From contig JAMYGW020000012.1 in NCBI GenBank assembly GCA_025617375.2, positions 558,001-622,000 on the forward strand: a stretch of 64,000 nt of DNA, given 5' to 3'. Position 1 is the first letter of the stretch, and each line of letters starts with the position of its first letter. The translations under genes were made by a program, and so were the position numbers. The stretch comes from Acarospora socialis (taxonomy: Eukaryota; Ascomycota; Lecanoromycetes; Acarosporales; Acarosporaceae). The notes beneath the pieces are model-generated. The model did no database searches. It was not told the DNA's origin and saw only the letters and a list, made by a program, of their open reading frames with translations. This document shows positions 26,652 to 59,411 of this stretch, piece by piece.

Positions 26652-29398
26652 ATGGAAGAAGCACTTGAAGAGATCGCGGAGCTTGTGAACTCTGGTCACC
26701 CTCCTACTCAACGCTCCCGCTACGACGTAAGTGTTGAATGTCTGAAAGCCTACTTCACACCTACCAACGACTACAAGGTTCAACCTATCCAACCTACAGA
26801 GTCTTCGAGGCGTCCGTCTGTCCGCTCAGTTCAGCAACCAGACAACCAGGTAAAGTTGTCGTCCCATATTCTACACTTCTCTAACTAATCTTCCTAGGCT
26901 TACTCGCTCGAAGAAGACCTTGCGGACATCGCGAGGCTCGTCAATGCTCCAAGAGAGACCTGGACACGTCGAAAGGTCTCGTCGTCGACTAAAACTACGT
27001 TGCCTACTTCTCTGAAGGTCTCCTCGTCTACTCAACCTACTTCGTCGTCTACCAAAACTACGTTGCCTGCTTCTCTGAACGTCTCCTCATCTATTCAACC
27101 TACTTCGTCGGCTACTCTGAAGACTCTGGTGTCTGCTGAACTTACTTCAGCTCCTGCTACCGCGTCTCAGAACAAGGTATGTCTTGTATCCTTTGTCGAA
27201 CTTAGGTTTGATAGTTAACAGAAATTAGGATACTCAATCACGTGCTCCGGTTCATCTCATAAAGCGTAAGCCAGTTGGATCTGGCAGCAGCAAGAAACAC
27301 TCTTCGTCGGAAGACAATCCTACCGTCGTCGCGGAACGTGTGATCAATCCCCGAGAGACCTTGCCATCTACTAAGGTTTCTATCACTCAAGACGTTGATC
27401 CTGCCTACATCAACGAGCGTGTTATCACTACCAAAGAGACCTTACCATCTGTTAAGGTATCTATCACTCGAGACGAAGATCGTGCCTACGTCAACGAGCG
27501 TGTGATCAATCCCCGAGAGACCTTGCCATCTACAAAGGTTTCCCCTATTCAAGACATTAATCCTACCTACATCAACGAGCGTATTATCACTACCAAAGAG
27601 ACCTTACCATCTGTTAAGGCTTCTATCACTCGAGACGAAGACCCTGCCTACGTCGTCGACGAGCGTGTTATCACTACCAAGAAGACCTTACCATCTACTA
27701 GGACTTCTACTACTCGAGACGAAGACCCTGCCTACGTCGTCAGCGAGCGTGTTATCACTACCAAAGAGACCTTACCATCTACTAAGGCTTCTACCACTCG
27801 AAACAAACATCCTGCCTGCATTGATAAGCGTTTGATCATTCCTAAACAGACCTTATCGCGTAAGGCAGTTGGATTTGGCAGCAAGGTAAGACTACCTCTC
27901 TAGTTTATCTTCGTTCTACTAACTGTCATAGAAAAACACTTCTTTGGACGAAACACCTACACATATCGCTGAGCGTGTGAACATCCCTGAGGAGACCTTG
28001 CGATCTCGAGAGACTTGCTCCACCGCGGAAGAAGAGCGCGCTGCATGCGTCCCGCAGCCTTTGAACGTTCCTAGAAAGACCTTACCCTCCCCAAGGCTTC
28101 AGGACACCCTAGACAAAACACGTACGTACGTTGCGGAGCGTTTGAGAATCCTCAAGCAGACCTCGCCACCTCCACAGCCTTTATTCGTCAAGAAAGTCAC
28201 CCCGCAGTCTGCTGTTGGGCGCTTCAATCACGACGGCACATCACGTACTCTCATCGATACATTACCAGTACCAACGGTCAACTCAGTCTCTGGTGATGGT
28301 ACTTCGCGACCCTCTTTTGGGCCATATAGCGATAAATCATCACGTTTCCCCAAAGCTACCTTGCCATCTCCAAAGGTTTCTTTCTCTGGTGATATTACTT
28401 CGCGACCCACTACCGGGCCACATAGCGAGGTATGTCTTCAGTGCTCTGCAGAGCTCCAGTATCATAGCTAACAGTATTTAGTATAACACATCGCCGACTC
28501 CTAAGCCTCTCGTGATCCGCAAGCGGGATAATTCCGAAAGCAAGGTAAGTCTCTTGTCTTCCTGACTTTGACAATGGGGTAACTAACCAATTGCCAGGGA
28601 TCATCATACAGATTCCTGGGGCGCCACCACTCGTTGGAGGACACCCCGCGCATCGCGCGGTCCGCATCGTTCGGGACCGCCAGGGAGCTGCGAAGCAGCG
28701 CCCTAACCACTTACAGGGAGCGCACATCGAGCCTCCCGAAGCTCCCAATCCCGCCGCGCGCCGCCTCTCTTGGGAGACTCCAAGAGGGCGGAGTACCCCG
28801 CGCGGTACTCTTCCTGGACGTGCCTCGTCGACGTAACGTCGACATCATCTTCCCTCCCTCTGCCGTCGCCCCCCCGGCAGCCACCACCCCTCGCCGCCGC
28901 TCAAGCGGCTCGAAAGCTCTCCCGTCCGCCCCCCCGCCACCACCGACAACAACGCCACTGATCTACCGATCAGCATCGGGCGCGCTTCGCGACCACTTGG
29001 GTCCGAAGCAACCAGTCTTCGTTCCGGCGAGGATCAGCCGTCGGCGCAACGCGACGGCCTCCTCGGCCATGGCCACTCGGGGTTCCTCGTCGAACCCATT
29101 CGACAATTCGCCAGCCCACTGGCAAGGGGAGTGCCCGGTCCGGGTTGAGTCAGCAATGACTCAACCTGGACCCGTCCCCGCCAGTGCCAGCGGCACTCCT
29201 CCTCCTCCCCCCCCGGCCCGGGCCCCGCCACCACCGCCCGCCGCATCCGCCGCTGCTGTTGCAGCAGCCATGGCCGCCGCCGCCAACGCGGCTGGCCCGG
29301 CCCCGGCAGCCCCCGCCCCGGCCGCCCCACGTCGCCGTGGGGTGTTCCGTCGCGTCGGGCGTGCCCTGCGCCGCCTGGTGGGGGGGAGGAAGGAGTAG
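26652..29398 (+). CDS. orphan repeat protein, six exons with all phase-0 introns
   Basis: Exons 26652-26849, 26898-27176, 27229-27885, 27932-28429, 28482-28544 and 28598-29398 give 831 aa. All five introns are GT-AG, 45-55 nt and phase 0. Exons 1 and 2 begin with related helices (EALEEIAELVNSG; EDLADIARLVNAP). Exon 2 has Ser/Thr/Leu repeats (SSTKTTLPTSLKVSS). Exon 3 has six 27-28-residue repeats of the type ERVITTKETLPSxKxS. Exon 4 continues with degenerate copies. Exon 6 is compositionally different: GC-rich, Pro/Ala-rich, ending in an Arg-rich amphipathic helix (RRRGVFRRVGRALRRLVGG). No domain is recognised. There is no signal peptide or clear membrane segment. It is probably largely disordered and may be lineage-specific. 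The regular splicing argues that it is a real, maintained gene. Confidence 0.75.
27334..27828 (+). repeat. six 81-84-bp coding repeats
   Basis: Unit starts are 27334, 27415, 27496, 27577, 27661 and 27745. Units 1 and 3 (ERVINPRETLPSTKVS) resemble each other, as do units 2 and 4 (ITTKETLPSVK). This points to duplication of a two-unit block followed by spread of the second type. Confidence 0.9.
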
Positions 29399-54587: not shown

Positions 54588-57133
54588 GGCCTGGTTGCAA
54601 GGCCAAAAGGCAGAGTCAACCCCGAGGATCTTTCAAAGGAACTGCGAGTCTTCAATCTTTGAACGAATGTCTGGTGGTGAAATAGCAGTTGATGTCGGTG
54701 TTGTTGACGGTGAGATTGTCAAGTCGTACGTAAGCCTCTGGGCTTAGGAGTCTGTCTGGAAGTGGGTACTATGGACTTCGGGCAAATACTTCTAAAGAAA
54801 ACGACCGGATGAGCTAGTCGAAGTCAGCCGTTCGTAAGTTGATGTTCGGTCTGCTGGAGGATGATACGGTAAGACTCAGAAAGAGGATAAGAAAAGATGG
54901 GCGGTGACTTTGAGGTAGTAACAGGAGTGAGGCAGTGCTTTGCCACGCGTCATCTGCTTACTAAGATTAATGATCCGCTCCCATACGATTTACCAAATTC
55001 TAAACTCTCCGTTCCTCTGCGGGAACAACTTACTCGAGTAACATGCGAGTACTCGTCAGTCATGAGTGTCTCTAGTAGATTGTTATGGGTGAGCTGAGAG
55101 ATTCGTGTTGCAGCCTCAGACAATAAGAATAGGAATAGGAATTTCGGACTGACGGAGCTACAGAGGGATTAATGCAATCGAAGCATAAAACTACCATCCG
55201 ACTTCCGCCCGTTACTCCCGTCTGCTCACAATGCTTTGCTAATAATGATAATGGATGACCCCCTCATATACTGTGTACGAGCATGCAGGGCTGTTACCCT
55301 CACCAAGATTGAATTCATTTCTCCATCATGATGCAATGTTTCCAGTTCTGCTTTCACAACTTCAATGTAAACAGCTCTACTTGTAGTTGCGAGTGGCGAG
55401 CATCCCTTCAAGTCAACACGCTGAAGCTGAAGCAAAACATTAGTCCGTTCGGAAGAGGAGGTGGCTCTGCTAGGCAATGTGTAACTGATACTGGTTGAAC
55501 CTTCATCAATATACAGACTGACTACATGTACTCAAGGCAAGTGGTAACTGCTAACAAAATATTCCGCTATTAGATGAGTCGCTTTGAAAGCCTCATAATA
55601 ACTGCTTAAGTCTTGCTATCTATGAGCCAGCACGTCTCCCTGTGATTGGCGGACCTTAGTATTATCATTGAAGCTCTTCTATCCTGGTCCGACATACTCC
55701 TCCGGCATAGATTCCCTAAGCAGAATCACTCCCTGTTCCACTGTGAAATCCTCTCAGTATCATTATCAGGGCTCGTACTCATAGTCTACCCAAGGTACCT
55801 GTCTTATTTCTTGCCTCTGAACAATATCAAATATCTTTTTCGAAGTGTATGGCTGTCGTTTTAGACGATGTTGCAGCTTCGTCTCATCTCGCCGGGACGG
55901 GTCTCTCCCTACAAACTGCTTGGTGCGGCTCTACGATGATCCTCTTAGCTGCTTACAATGACTTCCACTATCTGAAAACAAGATGGGCGCAGCTCTCCAT
56001 CCCGAGCCATAGAATACAAGAACATCCCTCCATTTCTCCTTGAGCCTGTCGGGCGGCGTTTTACAGTTGGCCTTATCACATCCCAAACCCGCTCCCATGG
56101 TTTACTAGCAAATAGGCCTGTATGAGTGCGTTTTATTGCTATATCTGCGAAATTCCCGCTGTTCTTTGCTCTCGTCCTTTCTACTTAGCACTTCTCTCGT
56201 AACTCGTTACTACATCTTACGTTGAATTAGTCCAATGAGACGACTACACTTTCGAACAACCTGCTTGGTTGTCGTTTGCAGCACACTGCCGTTATCCATG
56301 ACCTTCCCTGCTTCTCCAGAGACATGGACGCTTCCGGTCTTCGGTTTGGTAGATATCCCAAGGAAAGCCTTCGGACTGACCAGCTAACTGTTTGCATTAG
56401 AGACCAATATGCTTAGGCCCTGCTCCCAAACAAGAAGATCTCGGACCTTTGCTTAAGGCAGATATGTTCGATGATATGCAGGAGTTCTGTCTGAGTCACG
56501 TTGTAGGCAACTGCCAGTGTATCTTGTTAAATACTGAACCACATCAATGGAAATGGGCATACAACGTCGTGTGCGCACTCGCCAGGATCCAGACAGTCCC
56601 AGCAATCCAGAAATGCAGTGATCGATGCGTCTGCGCTCAAACGGTTGAAAGCGAGCGTCTGGATGTGCCTGGCAGCAACTTGCAAGGCGCCCAGGCGAGA
56701 CAAGGCGTGGGATCAAAGACGGTCACCCTTCCAGTTCATACTTAGAAGACGAGGGACCTGCTGGTTGGGACTGTGGTTTGAGTCTTCCTTGTGATATCTG
56801 TCGAGCAAGTCGTGTCGGTGGGTCGCGTCCGGACTGCCTTGCCTCTCAAAGTCTTTGCAGGCCCTGTATGTACGAGTACACATGAACGCTATTATTATCT
56901 ATTTTATTCTCTATAGCTCCGTATTATCCATGGGTGACACGGATGATATTATGTAAGCGAAGGAACTAACTCAATCGGAAGCAATCTGCCGACAACCAAC
57001 CGGAGTTAGCCGGGTCAGCAAACACGTTCAACACAAAACCATCCCCCGCCATCAGTGATCACCGAGTCCTTGCGCTGTGGAGATAAGACATTGACCATGT
57101 CCTTCAAGTCAGGAGTTCTGATCAACTTCCTAC
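54588..57133. other. 2.5-kb intergenic region upstream of the bZIP gene
   Basis: Divergent gap between bZIP (-) and the MoaA gene (+). Several short ATG frames exist (for example 56449-56745, +), none with family resemblance. The length suggests long regulatory sequence or a long leader for the bZIP gene. No RNA gene or repeat is seen. Confidence 0.5.
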
Positions 57134-58492
57134 ATGAGTGAGAGAACCGTTTTCCGTTCGGCATTGGTGCTTGCGCGCCGCACCAATGGCCTCGCAGGTC
57201 GTTCCAGCAAGCCTTCAAGACATCGTGTGTCGCCCCATGGTGCTGGCCATCAGAGACGTGGCATAGCAAAACAAGGGTTCCTGCTGGATCAGGATATTAC
57301 TTCAGATGGAAACCTTCCACCACCGCCACTTCCCCCCTTTGGCACTTCGAAGCGCGACGCACTCCAGAATATCAAGCCCTTTTCATCCTTCCTGACGGAC
57401 ACTTACCAGCGCCAGCATGACTATCTGCGCATCAGTATCACCGAACGTTGCAACCTCCGATGTTTGTATTGCATGCCGGAGGAAGGCGTGCCGCTCTCCC
57501 CAGCGGCCCATCTTCTTACCACTGCGGAGATAGTCTACCTCTCCTCGCTCTTCGTTTCCCAAGGCGTGACCAAAATGAGACTCACGGGCGGCGAACCGAC
57601 AGTAAGAAGGGACATTGTGCCGCTTATGCATAGCCTGGGTGACCTGAGGCGTCAAGGGTTGAAGGAACTATGTTTGACAACCAATGGGATCGCGCTACAT
57701 CGAAAACTCGATAGCATGGCTGAAGCTGGGCTCACCGGGGTGAACTTAAGTTTGGACACGCTGGATCCGTTCCAATTTCAGATCATGACGCGGCGGAAAG
57801 GGTTTGAGGCGGTTATGCATAGCATTGACAGGATCCTGGAGATGAACCGACTAGGGGCGGAGATCAAGCTCAAAATCAACTGCGTGATCATGCGGGGGGT
57901 CAATGAGAGGGAGATTGTTCCGTTTGTTGAAATGGGAAGAGAGAAAGATATCGAAGTTCGCTTCATTGAGTACATGCCTTTCGATGGAAACAAATGGAGT
58001 AAAGGCAAGATGTTAGCCTACAAAGAGATGTTAGCATTGATTCGGGAAAAGTACCCGGGATTGGTCAAGGTTCGAGACCACAAGAACGACACGAGTAAAA
58101 CATACCAAGTTCCAGGCTTTATGGGGAGAATAGGATTCATCACTAGTATGACACATAACTTCTGCGGAAGCTGCAACAGGCTGCGAATCACAAGTGATGG
58201 AAACCTCAAGGTGTGTCTTTTTGGCAACTCGGAGGTTTCTTTGCGAGACCTGCTGCGGAAAGATAATGGTGGCGTGCCGATTGACCAAGAAGCTATGGAA
58301 GCCATGAAAAGAATCGAAATGGATCGACAACAAGCTTTACCTGGCAGTACCGGCACATTGGGGAACAGCGAACGGGAGAGACAACTCCTGGAAGTCATCG
58401 GCATGGCCGTGAAGAGGAAGAAAGAGAGGCACGCCGGGATGGGCGAGTTGGAGAACATGAAGAACAGACCTATGATCTTAATTGGTGGGTAG
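57134..58492 (+). CDS. cnxABC: MoaA-type radical SAM enzyme of molybdopterin synthesis
   Basis: Unspliced frame of 452 aa. MoaA/MOCS1A with MoaC converts GTP to cyclic pyranopterin monophosphate, the first step of molybdenum cofactor synthesis, in mitochondria in eukaryotes. A basic, Ser/Arg-rich N-terminus (residues 1-48) fits a presequence. The radical SAM cluster site is ERCNLRCLYCMPEEG (CxxxCxxC), followed by MRLTGGEPTVRRDI. The C-terminal second cluster site is CGSCNRLRITSDGNLKVC. The frame ends MILIGG then TAG. A terminal Gly-Gly is required for activity in human MOCS1A. In Aspergillus nidulans cnxABC the MoaA and MoaC domains are in one polypeptide; here the MoaC frame begins 127 bp downstream and could be joined by splicing across the Gly-Gly codons. 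Confidence 0.93.
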   Translation: MSERTVFRSALVLARRTNGLAGRSSKPSRHRVSPHGAGHQRRGIAKQGFLLDQDITSDGNLPPPPLPPFGTSKRDALQNIKPFSSFLTDTYQRQHDYLRISITERCNLRCLYCMPEEGVPLSPAAHLLTTAEIVYLSSLFVSQGVTKMRLTGGEPTVRRDIVPLMHSLGDLRRQGLKELCLTTNGIALHRKLDSMAEAGLTGVNLSLDTLDPFQFQIMTRRKGFEAVMHSIDRILEMNRLGAEIKLKINCVIMRGVNEREIVPFVEMGREKDIEVRFIEYMPFDGNKWSKGKMLAYKEMLALIREKYPGLVKVRDHKNDTSKTYQVPGFMGRIGFITSMTHNFCGSCNRLRITSDGNLKVCLFGNSEVSLRDLLRKDNGGVPIDQEAMEAMKRIEMDRQQALPGSTGTLGNSERERQLLEVIGMAVKRKKERHAGMGELENMKNRPMILIGG

Positions 58493-58619
58493 GTTTGGGA
58501 CAGTTCAGCTCGCCCTCCATGCCGATTCTGTATACACTGTATTTAAAAATAACATACTCACCAACGATAAACTTTTCGTTTGTCAGATCTTGCTATCAGC
58601 GTATGCGGAGTTATAGACC

Positions 58620-59411
58620 ATGCTAATGGTCTGGGTAGGTGAGCTGCCGTGTCGTAAACTGCATCAGTCTCCTTGCGTGACGCCTATTCCATCGCCGACC
58701 AAGACCACTCAACATCCCCACTCCACAGCCCCAACATCACTGCCCTGGGCCCGCGTTCCACATCAACTACTTATCTCAAAAAATATCCTCCCCCGGTTCA
58801 GCCCTCCCGCCCATTCTCAGCGCAGTTATTCAACAAAACCCTCTCCGGCCCCATCCTCCAACACCCTTCCACACCTGACTCCATCTTCTACCGTGCACAT
58901 GGTGCCCGTAACGCATAAAGCACCGAGCCACCGCACCGCAATCGCCCGCGGCTCAGTCCACTTCTCAAACGCCACGCCCTATGACCAGATCCGGACCAAC
59001 ATGCTCAAAAAGGGCGACGTCCTCGGCGTGGCGCGTGTGGCGGGCATAATGGCCGCAAAGAAGACGGGCGATATTGTACCGCTATGTCACCCCATTGCGC
59101 TGACGGCTGTAGAGGTTAAGGTGGAGCTTGTTACACCTGCTGCTGCCGCTGATCTTGAGAAGCCAGTTACGAAGGAGGGAGGGAAGATGATGGGATTCGG
59201 GGGTGTAGAGATCGAAGCGAAAGTCGAGTGTGATGGAAAGACGGGGGTGGAGATGGAGGCGCTGGCTGCGGTCATGGGTGCTTGTTTGACGGTGTTCGAT
59301 ATGTGCAAGGCTGTGGATCGGGGGATGAGGATTGAGAGCGTGAGGGTTGTTTTGAAGGAAGGTGGTAGGAGTGGGACATGGTTGGAGGAGGGATTTAGAA
59401 ACGAGTTTTGA
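58620..59411 (+). CDS. cnxABC: MoaC domain (cyclic pyranopterin monophosphate synthase)
   Basis: 263 aa if begun at its own ATG. The MoaC domain (residues 105-263) is complete: TAIARGSVHFSNATPYDQI, KKGDVLGVARVAGIMAAKKTGDIVPLCHP, then TGVEMEALAAVMGACLTVFDMCKAVDRGM. The preceding 100 residues are Ser/Pro/Thr-rich with SQRSYSTKPS, like a presequence cleavage region, so independent targeting is possible. Alternatively this is the 3' part of a cnxABC fusion. Donors gtgggt at 58485 (phase 1) and gtaggt at 58489 (phase 2) fit acceptors ending at 58638 or 58728, and at 58825, respectively. Which form is made cannot be told from the sequence. Confidence 0.88.
   Translation: MLMVWVGELPCRKLHQSPCVTPIPSPTKTTQHPHSTAPTSLPWARVPHQLLISKNILPRFSPPAHSQRSYSTKPSPAPSSNTLPHLTPSSTVHMVPVTHKAPSHRTAIARGSVHFSNATPYDQIRTNMLKKGDVLGVARVAGIMAAKKTGDIVPLCHPIALTAVEVKVELVTPAAAADLEKPVTKEGGKMMGFGGVEIEAKVECDGKTGVEMEALAAVMGACLTVFDMCKAVDRGMRIESVRVVLKEGGRSGTWLEEGFRNEF

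Follow-up and report, generated by a model that had tools for sequence, protein, structure and literature searches.

A MoaA–MoaC locus in Acarospora socialis with a probable nit-7-like choice between free and fused products and a predicted tandem splice donor overlapping the MoaA stop codon

A single locus in the 64,000-nt window analysed here (C12:558001-622000, from an Acarospora socialis genome of 31.1 Mb in 38 contigs) carries MoaA and MoaC reading frames on the same strand, with MoaA first, and it probably represents this fungus's nit-7/cnxABC/MOCS1 gene, with the choice between free MoaA and a MoaA–MoaC fusion that is made by nit-7. The case rests on homology, because our splice model leaves the fusion acceptor unsettled and prefers two genes. 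The principle has been demonstrated before, in nit-7 and MOCS1, and the locus is a further example of it, with a 4-nt tandem donor overlapping the MoaA stop codon as its own feature (Table 1).

Table 1. Features of the MoaA–MoaC locus, in positions of the window
Feature	Position	Strand	Basis or score
MoaA (GTP 3',8-cyclase) frame, 452 aa, C-terminal Gly-Gly and TAG	57134..58492	+	Read directly; TIGR02666
Final two Gly codons and stop (GGT GGG TAG), which both donors overlap	58484..58492	+	Read directly
Upstream donor GTGGGT, which splits the first Gly codon (phase 1)	58485..58490	+	Score 3.42, quantile 0.18 of 77
Downstream donor GTAGGT, phase 2, across stop codon	58489..58494	+	Score 4.69, quantile 0.43 of 77
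Predicted intron A, 154 nt; removal would give a 707-aa MoaA–MoaC fusion without terminal Gly-Gly	58485..58638	+	Splice model, phase
Predicted intron B, 150 nt; removal would give ATT GGT GG/G TGA, free MoaA of 452 aa	58489..58638	+	Best-scoring pair of region
GCTAAT resembling a branch point, its A 12 nt upstream of the end of the acceptor	58622..58627	+	Splice model
Acceptor TAG, predicted common to both donors	58636..58638	+	Score 5.62 with branch included, quantile 0.42 of 77
Predicted exon 2, with the MoaC domain preceded by a basic linker rich in Pro, Ser and Thr (58639-58898)	58639..59411	+	Conceptual join, homology
TGA, stop only when donor 58489 joins acceptor 58638	58640..58642	+	Read directly
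MoaC (cyclic pyranopterin monophosphate synthase) homology	58857..59387	+	PRK09364, residues 81-257 of frame from 58617

The MoaA frame scored 338.6 bits against TIGR02666 (cut-off 284) and is complete through its Gly-Gly and stop, ending in MKNRPMILIGG followed by TAG (DNA ...HAGMGELENMKNRPMILIGG). An earlier, sequence-only reading of this stretch had described a MoaA end ATT GGT GGG TAG with the donors GTGGGT at 58485 and GTAGGT at 58489, and direct reading bears this out, with the 12 bases at 58481-58492. The MoaC frame (58617-59411 stop to stop; 155.8 bits against TIGR00581, cut-off 141.5) is not in the frame of MoaA, and its first ATG (58620) lies 127 nt past the MoaA stop. PF06463 (MoaA) and PF01967 (MoaC) each had a single match in the genome. 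No NCBIfam model matched the last 63 residues of MoaA when these were searched by themselves.

Two further observations concern the surroundings of the locus. An upstream reading frame of 14 codons (57097-57141) starts at an ATG in good context, preceded by ACC, and its TGA overlaps, in a different frame, the likely MoaA start (ATG 57134, with T at -3); this frame could damp MoaA translation. A predicted gene at 26652-29398 repeats, many times over, a motif resembling RVITTKETLPSTKxS. Demand for Moco in this fungus is plausible, because a PF00174 match (C1:2963953-2964470, one piece with an internal stop as from an unspliced intron) and a PF01077 match ~5 kb from it (C1:2969388) may be read as a nitrate/nitrite reductase pair; the two neighbours are consistent with a nitrate cluster of putative function.

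The Gly-Gly-stop is the ordinary end of a complete MoaA, since it is common to all of the bacterial loci kept from a scan of genome contigs with MoaA (best 80 of 485 loci, these 80 all bacterial): IGG and a stop end the frame in 80/80, of which 77 were read directly and three were re-read, their stretches beginning upstream of the frame. NR and MI were also present in the tail in 70/80 of these best 80 of 485. In the excerpts available of PMC3602415 and PMC7232280, the Gly-Gly motif is described as functionally important in MoaA. The top score among the best 80 of 485 belonged to a locus in the Bacteroidota bin RHO3_bin_5 (L030); across residues 84-452 its MoaA has 48% identity with the fungal protein, and the tail HAGM...NRPMI.IGG is common to the two. 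We regard this MoaA as a possible clue to where the eukaryotic enzyme came from. Viral contigs scanned with MoaA, with the MoaA tail and with MoaC gave no relative, and genome contigs scanned with the MoaA tail gave none either (71 stretches matched a pattern).

Splice signals were scored using a small gene finder trained on 200 kb of this fungus's genome and on the window up to 56500, with the locus excluded. Training yielded 46 genes and 77 introns with the donor GTRAGT, a median length of 55 nt (90th percentile 91) and a branch RCTRAY mostly 9–17 nt before the acceptor, a motif that is partly built in by the general fungal starting matrices. An outside check of this model, made via breaks in PF00174 matches, recovered one of two introns: the model intron in L004 (1909-1959) lay within one codon of the match break, and the L005/L006 break was missed.

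Fourteen AG sites were scored between 58500 and 58900, and only 58638 reaches the body of trained introns (the next, 58616, stands at quantile 0.01); the acceptors 58728, 58801 and 58825 have no good branch point and fall below all 77 trained introns. By phase, a fusion could be made from donor 58485 with 58638 or 58728, and from donor 58489 with 58801 or 58825. The sequence-only reading had put 58638, 58728 and 58825 forward as acceptors, and 58801 is an addition to that list; the phases given were right, but the three sites do not rank alike, as only 58638 has a well-placed branch point. The signals at 58728 and 58825 are weak, though on coding content 58825, like 58801, stays a candidate. 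Ranked by signal under full training, the region's leading donor–acceptor pairs were 58489-58638 (10.31, quantile 0.42) and 58485-58638 (9.04, quantile 0.22). When length and content were counted, 58489-58638 was still first and 58485-58638 fell to eleventh. Introns of 150–154 nt are long for this genome (full-score quantile 0.01–0.03). Three subset trainings, giving 21, 20 and 10 introns, placed 58489-58638 first in 2/3, with 58601-58667 ahead of it in the smallest, and had the fusion pair 58485-58638 among the top five in 0/3; acceptor 58638 was below all trained acceptors in the first of them.

The join of 58485 to 58638 reads ...MILIG-ELPCRKLHQ... and continues into MoaC. The join of 58489 to 58638 ends in ILIGG, the same 452-aa protein that the unspliced RNA encodes. 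Judged by these products, which of the two donors, 4 nt apart, is chosen would therefore determine whether the fusion or free MoaA is made. Both donors had been proposed to serve the fusion; 58485 does so when joined to 58638, whereas the stronger 58489, joined to the same acceptor, remakes free MoaA. After the latter join the second Gly is guaranteed (GGN), and the chance of an immediate stop is ~5% (3/64, by arithmetic and not by simulation).

As controls for chance we took 73 3' ends of predicted genes. A donor scoring at least 3.4 at the stop was present in 9/73 and an acceptor scoring at least 5.6 within 350 nt also in 9/73, with both together in 0/73. One control of the 73 equalled or beat the locus in its best near-stop donor–acceptor pair, and one had a 4-nt tandem donor pair near the stop. 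GGT-GGG-TAG tends of itself to be donor-like, and 9/73 control stops carry a donor. The coincidence of splice signals at the MoaA stop is thus more than casual, without being overwhelming by statistics alone; given the donor position shared with nit-7, a chance origin appears unlikely.

The closest known system is nit-7 of Neurospora crassa, described in the available excerpts of Wajmann et al. 2020 (PMC7232280), which credits Probst et al. 2014 with the first report of the two forms. The gene has one intron, which encodes Gly-Gly and a stop; its retention gives NIT-7A, its removal (1460-1696) gives NIT-7AB, and in another variant 1469-1696 is removed. Table 1 of that paper lists NIT-7A as nt 1-1467, NIT-7AB as 1-1459 plus 1697-2664, and two mutants of the donors, 1461T>C and 1470T>C. 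We deduced from these positions that codon 487 (1459-1461) is GGT, codon 488 the second Gly and 1465-1467 the stop, so that the donor splits the first Gly codon as G/GT in phase 1, and that the 1469 donor lies past the stop, in which case that variant also would end in Gly-Gly-stop.

On this deduced position, the nit-7 donor (nt 1460) and 58485 occupy the same place, G/GT in the first Gly codon, in phase 1. As far as these excerpts go, the likeness extends to a single locus with MoaA before MoaC, to a Gly-Gly and stop encoded by the (here predicted) intron and to a second donor a few nucleotides downstream that, by deduction in nit-7, keeps Gly-Gly-stop. The two loci differ in donor spacing (4 nt here vs 9 nt), in intron length (150/154 nt here vs 228/237 nt) and in the linker to the MoaC Met (~87 aa here vs ~136 aa). 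They also differ in the second donor itself, which overlaps the stop here and would use a new TGA from exon 2, whereas that of nit-7 lies just past the stop. In Neurospora both free NIT-7A and fused NIT-7AB are required, a strain without the 1460-1696 splice showed no significant growth, the fusion loses its A part after import, and unspliced nit-7 rises on nitrate (PMC7232280, as excerpted).

If the locus works as nit-7 does, one transcript would carry MoaA and then MoaC. With the intron kept, or cut at donor 58489, translation would stop at Gly-Gly and give active mitochondrial MoaA; a cut from 58485 to 58638 would remove the Gly-Gly-stop and give the MoaA–MoaC fusion. The job of the fusion would be to bring MoaC into mitochondria, as in Neurospora, where the fusion sheds its A part in that compartment and so sets MoaC free. 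The use of both joins, 58638 as the in vivo acceptor and the fate of the fusion are all taken by analogy from Neurospora and would hold here to the extent that the analogy does.

A more specific proposal, which we consider doubtful, is that the tandem donor GTGGGTAGGT over the stop acts as a switch, the upstream donor leading to the fusion and the downstream donor, with the same acceptor, leading to TGA and exactly MoaA-Gly-Gly. We lowered our estimate for it slightly because the fusion pair lost rank in the subset trainings and because the second-donor variant of nit-7 is dispensable: a strain without the 1469-1696 splice had wild-type growth with thinner hyphae, and the variant is called not essential in the excerpts of PMC7232280, which disfavours a large role for a second donor. 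Were the proposal true, free MoaA would be encoded twice, unspliced and spliced, both proteins could come from fully spliced mRNA, and the ratio of products would be set by competition between overlapping donors and not by intron retention. If GGTGGGTAG, the phase-1 donor and the shifted-frame stop after the acceptor are kept together in ascomycetes, a selected switch would be indicated; a wandering stop would indicate noise.

Tandem 5' splice sites of this kind are known from mammals as GYNNGY, and the locus has two GY donors at 4 nt, both with usable scores. In the excerpts of PMC4267661, such sites mostly reflect noise in splicing, and those that are regulated act for the most part on expression level by way of decay. 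At this locus, unlike there, the shifted frame would end at once and with a complete protein end. Among the matches listed from open-licence literature, including six of nine GYNNGY papers, there was no report of a tandem donor overlapping a stop.

The stretch between the predicted acceptor and the MoaC domain is odd in composition. Its DNA (58639-58898) has 43% C and 13% G, a G-poverty equalled by only 16/8371 CDS windows and by 3/44 regions upstream of predicted genes. The encoded linker has no Asp or Glu over 85 residues and 8 Lys/Arg, with 0/25112 CDS windows alike (44 predicted proteins). Base composition accounts for the lack of acidic residues, because another frame of the same DNA is also free of Asp and Glu, and on this ground the residue content, which had looked like an internal mitochondrial signal, was discounted. 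Within the basic, Asp/Glu-free stretch, R-S-Y-S-T (58821-58835) resembles a mitochondrial presequence cleavage site. The upstream openness of the MoaC frame was unremarkable (P 0.25 in 5000 simulations). Inside the predicted intron, the AT-rich TATTTAAAAATAAC (58540-58553) may be no more than normal intron sequence, or it may serve as a poly(A) signal that yields an mRNA for MoaA only, or as a TATA-like element from which MoaC is transcribed separately.

Two independent genes, with MoaA ending at TAG 58492 and MoaC translated from its own mRNA, either from ATG 58620 with its own presequence or from ATG 58899, are what the ab initio scores prefer (7.9 nats for two genes with ATG 58899 and 4.4 with ATG 58620, against 0.2 for the best fusion), and the unforced prediction at the locus is of two intronless genes, with the MoaA start misplaced to 57785. 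That arrangement would also agree with the good context of ATG 58620 (AGACCATG), with the AT-rich element just described and with the G-poor stretch upstream of 58899, which is at the low end of upstream regions, yet within their range. The model, however, penalises the odd composition of 58639-58898 and charges nothing for a second promoter within 127–406 nt, and ATG 58899 would give a MoaC without presequence. In the N. crassa excerpts, moreover, sequencing of 5' RACE products of ~2.5 kb ran across the intron, and NIT-7B by itself is not mitochondrial and does not suffice (PMC7232280). Taken together, we hold two genes to be unlikely.

The nit-7-like mechanism could also operate through another fusion acceptor (58801, 58825 or 58728) and a shorter linker, which we think quite unlikely. 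When 352 in-frame fusions containing one intron or two were compared, the content-inclusive shares were 0.32 for 58489-58825, 0.28 for 58489-58801, 0.27 for 58485-58638 and 0.10 for 58485-58728, and the C-rich stretch codes poorly. The branch-point and signal deficits of all three sites tell against them, as does the length of their introns, which would measure 244–337 nt. Two-intron fusions with a mini-exon (e.g. 58485-58586 plus 58635-58728) are in frame and were set aside, with a share of ~0.01 or less each. A constitutive fusion only, as first described for Aspergillus cnxABC, with the Gly-Gly-stop as a leftover in unspliced, degraded RNA, is highly improbable: an in-frame fusion join does exist, but the Gly-Gly end is intact and is functionally relevant in NIT-7A, free NIT-7A is needed besides NIT-7AB (PMC7232280, excerpts), and the better donor and intron retention both preserve Gly-Gly.

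The nit-7-like choice may also be set beside the other known systems, as far as excerpts of the sources describe them. Human MOCS1 is alternatively spliced in exon 9 to give MOCS1A or MOCS1AB (PMC9607355), which is alike in offering free A or an AB fusion by splicing, and there the fusion is cleaved and MOCS1B released in mitochondria; it differs in having ten exons and an internal targeting motif before MOCS1B, the comparison covering the described products and exon layout. Aspergillus nidulans cnxABC has both catalytic domains in one locus, as here (by the title of the reference), and differs by description as a single two-domain gene, discussed as bicistronic in PMC7232280. A MOCS1-like choice between free and fused forms, as the sequence-only reading proposed, is thus our best reading too, strengthened by the exact match in donor position to nit-7, with the splicing itself predicted. 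The suggestion that a fungal gene making both forms would be new did not survive, since Neurospora nit-7 already makes them; PMC7232280 was the only paper on free/fused MoaA–MoaC splicing in fungi among the matches listed from open-licence literature.

As a caution, gene annotation may list just one of the two products of such a locus. If the joins are used, overlapping donors would allow the cell's setting of the ratio between two enzymes that share a pathway step to be studied in a very compact arrangement, and the identical donor position here and in Neurospora would suggest that the choice between free and fused MoaA is an old ascomycete device.
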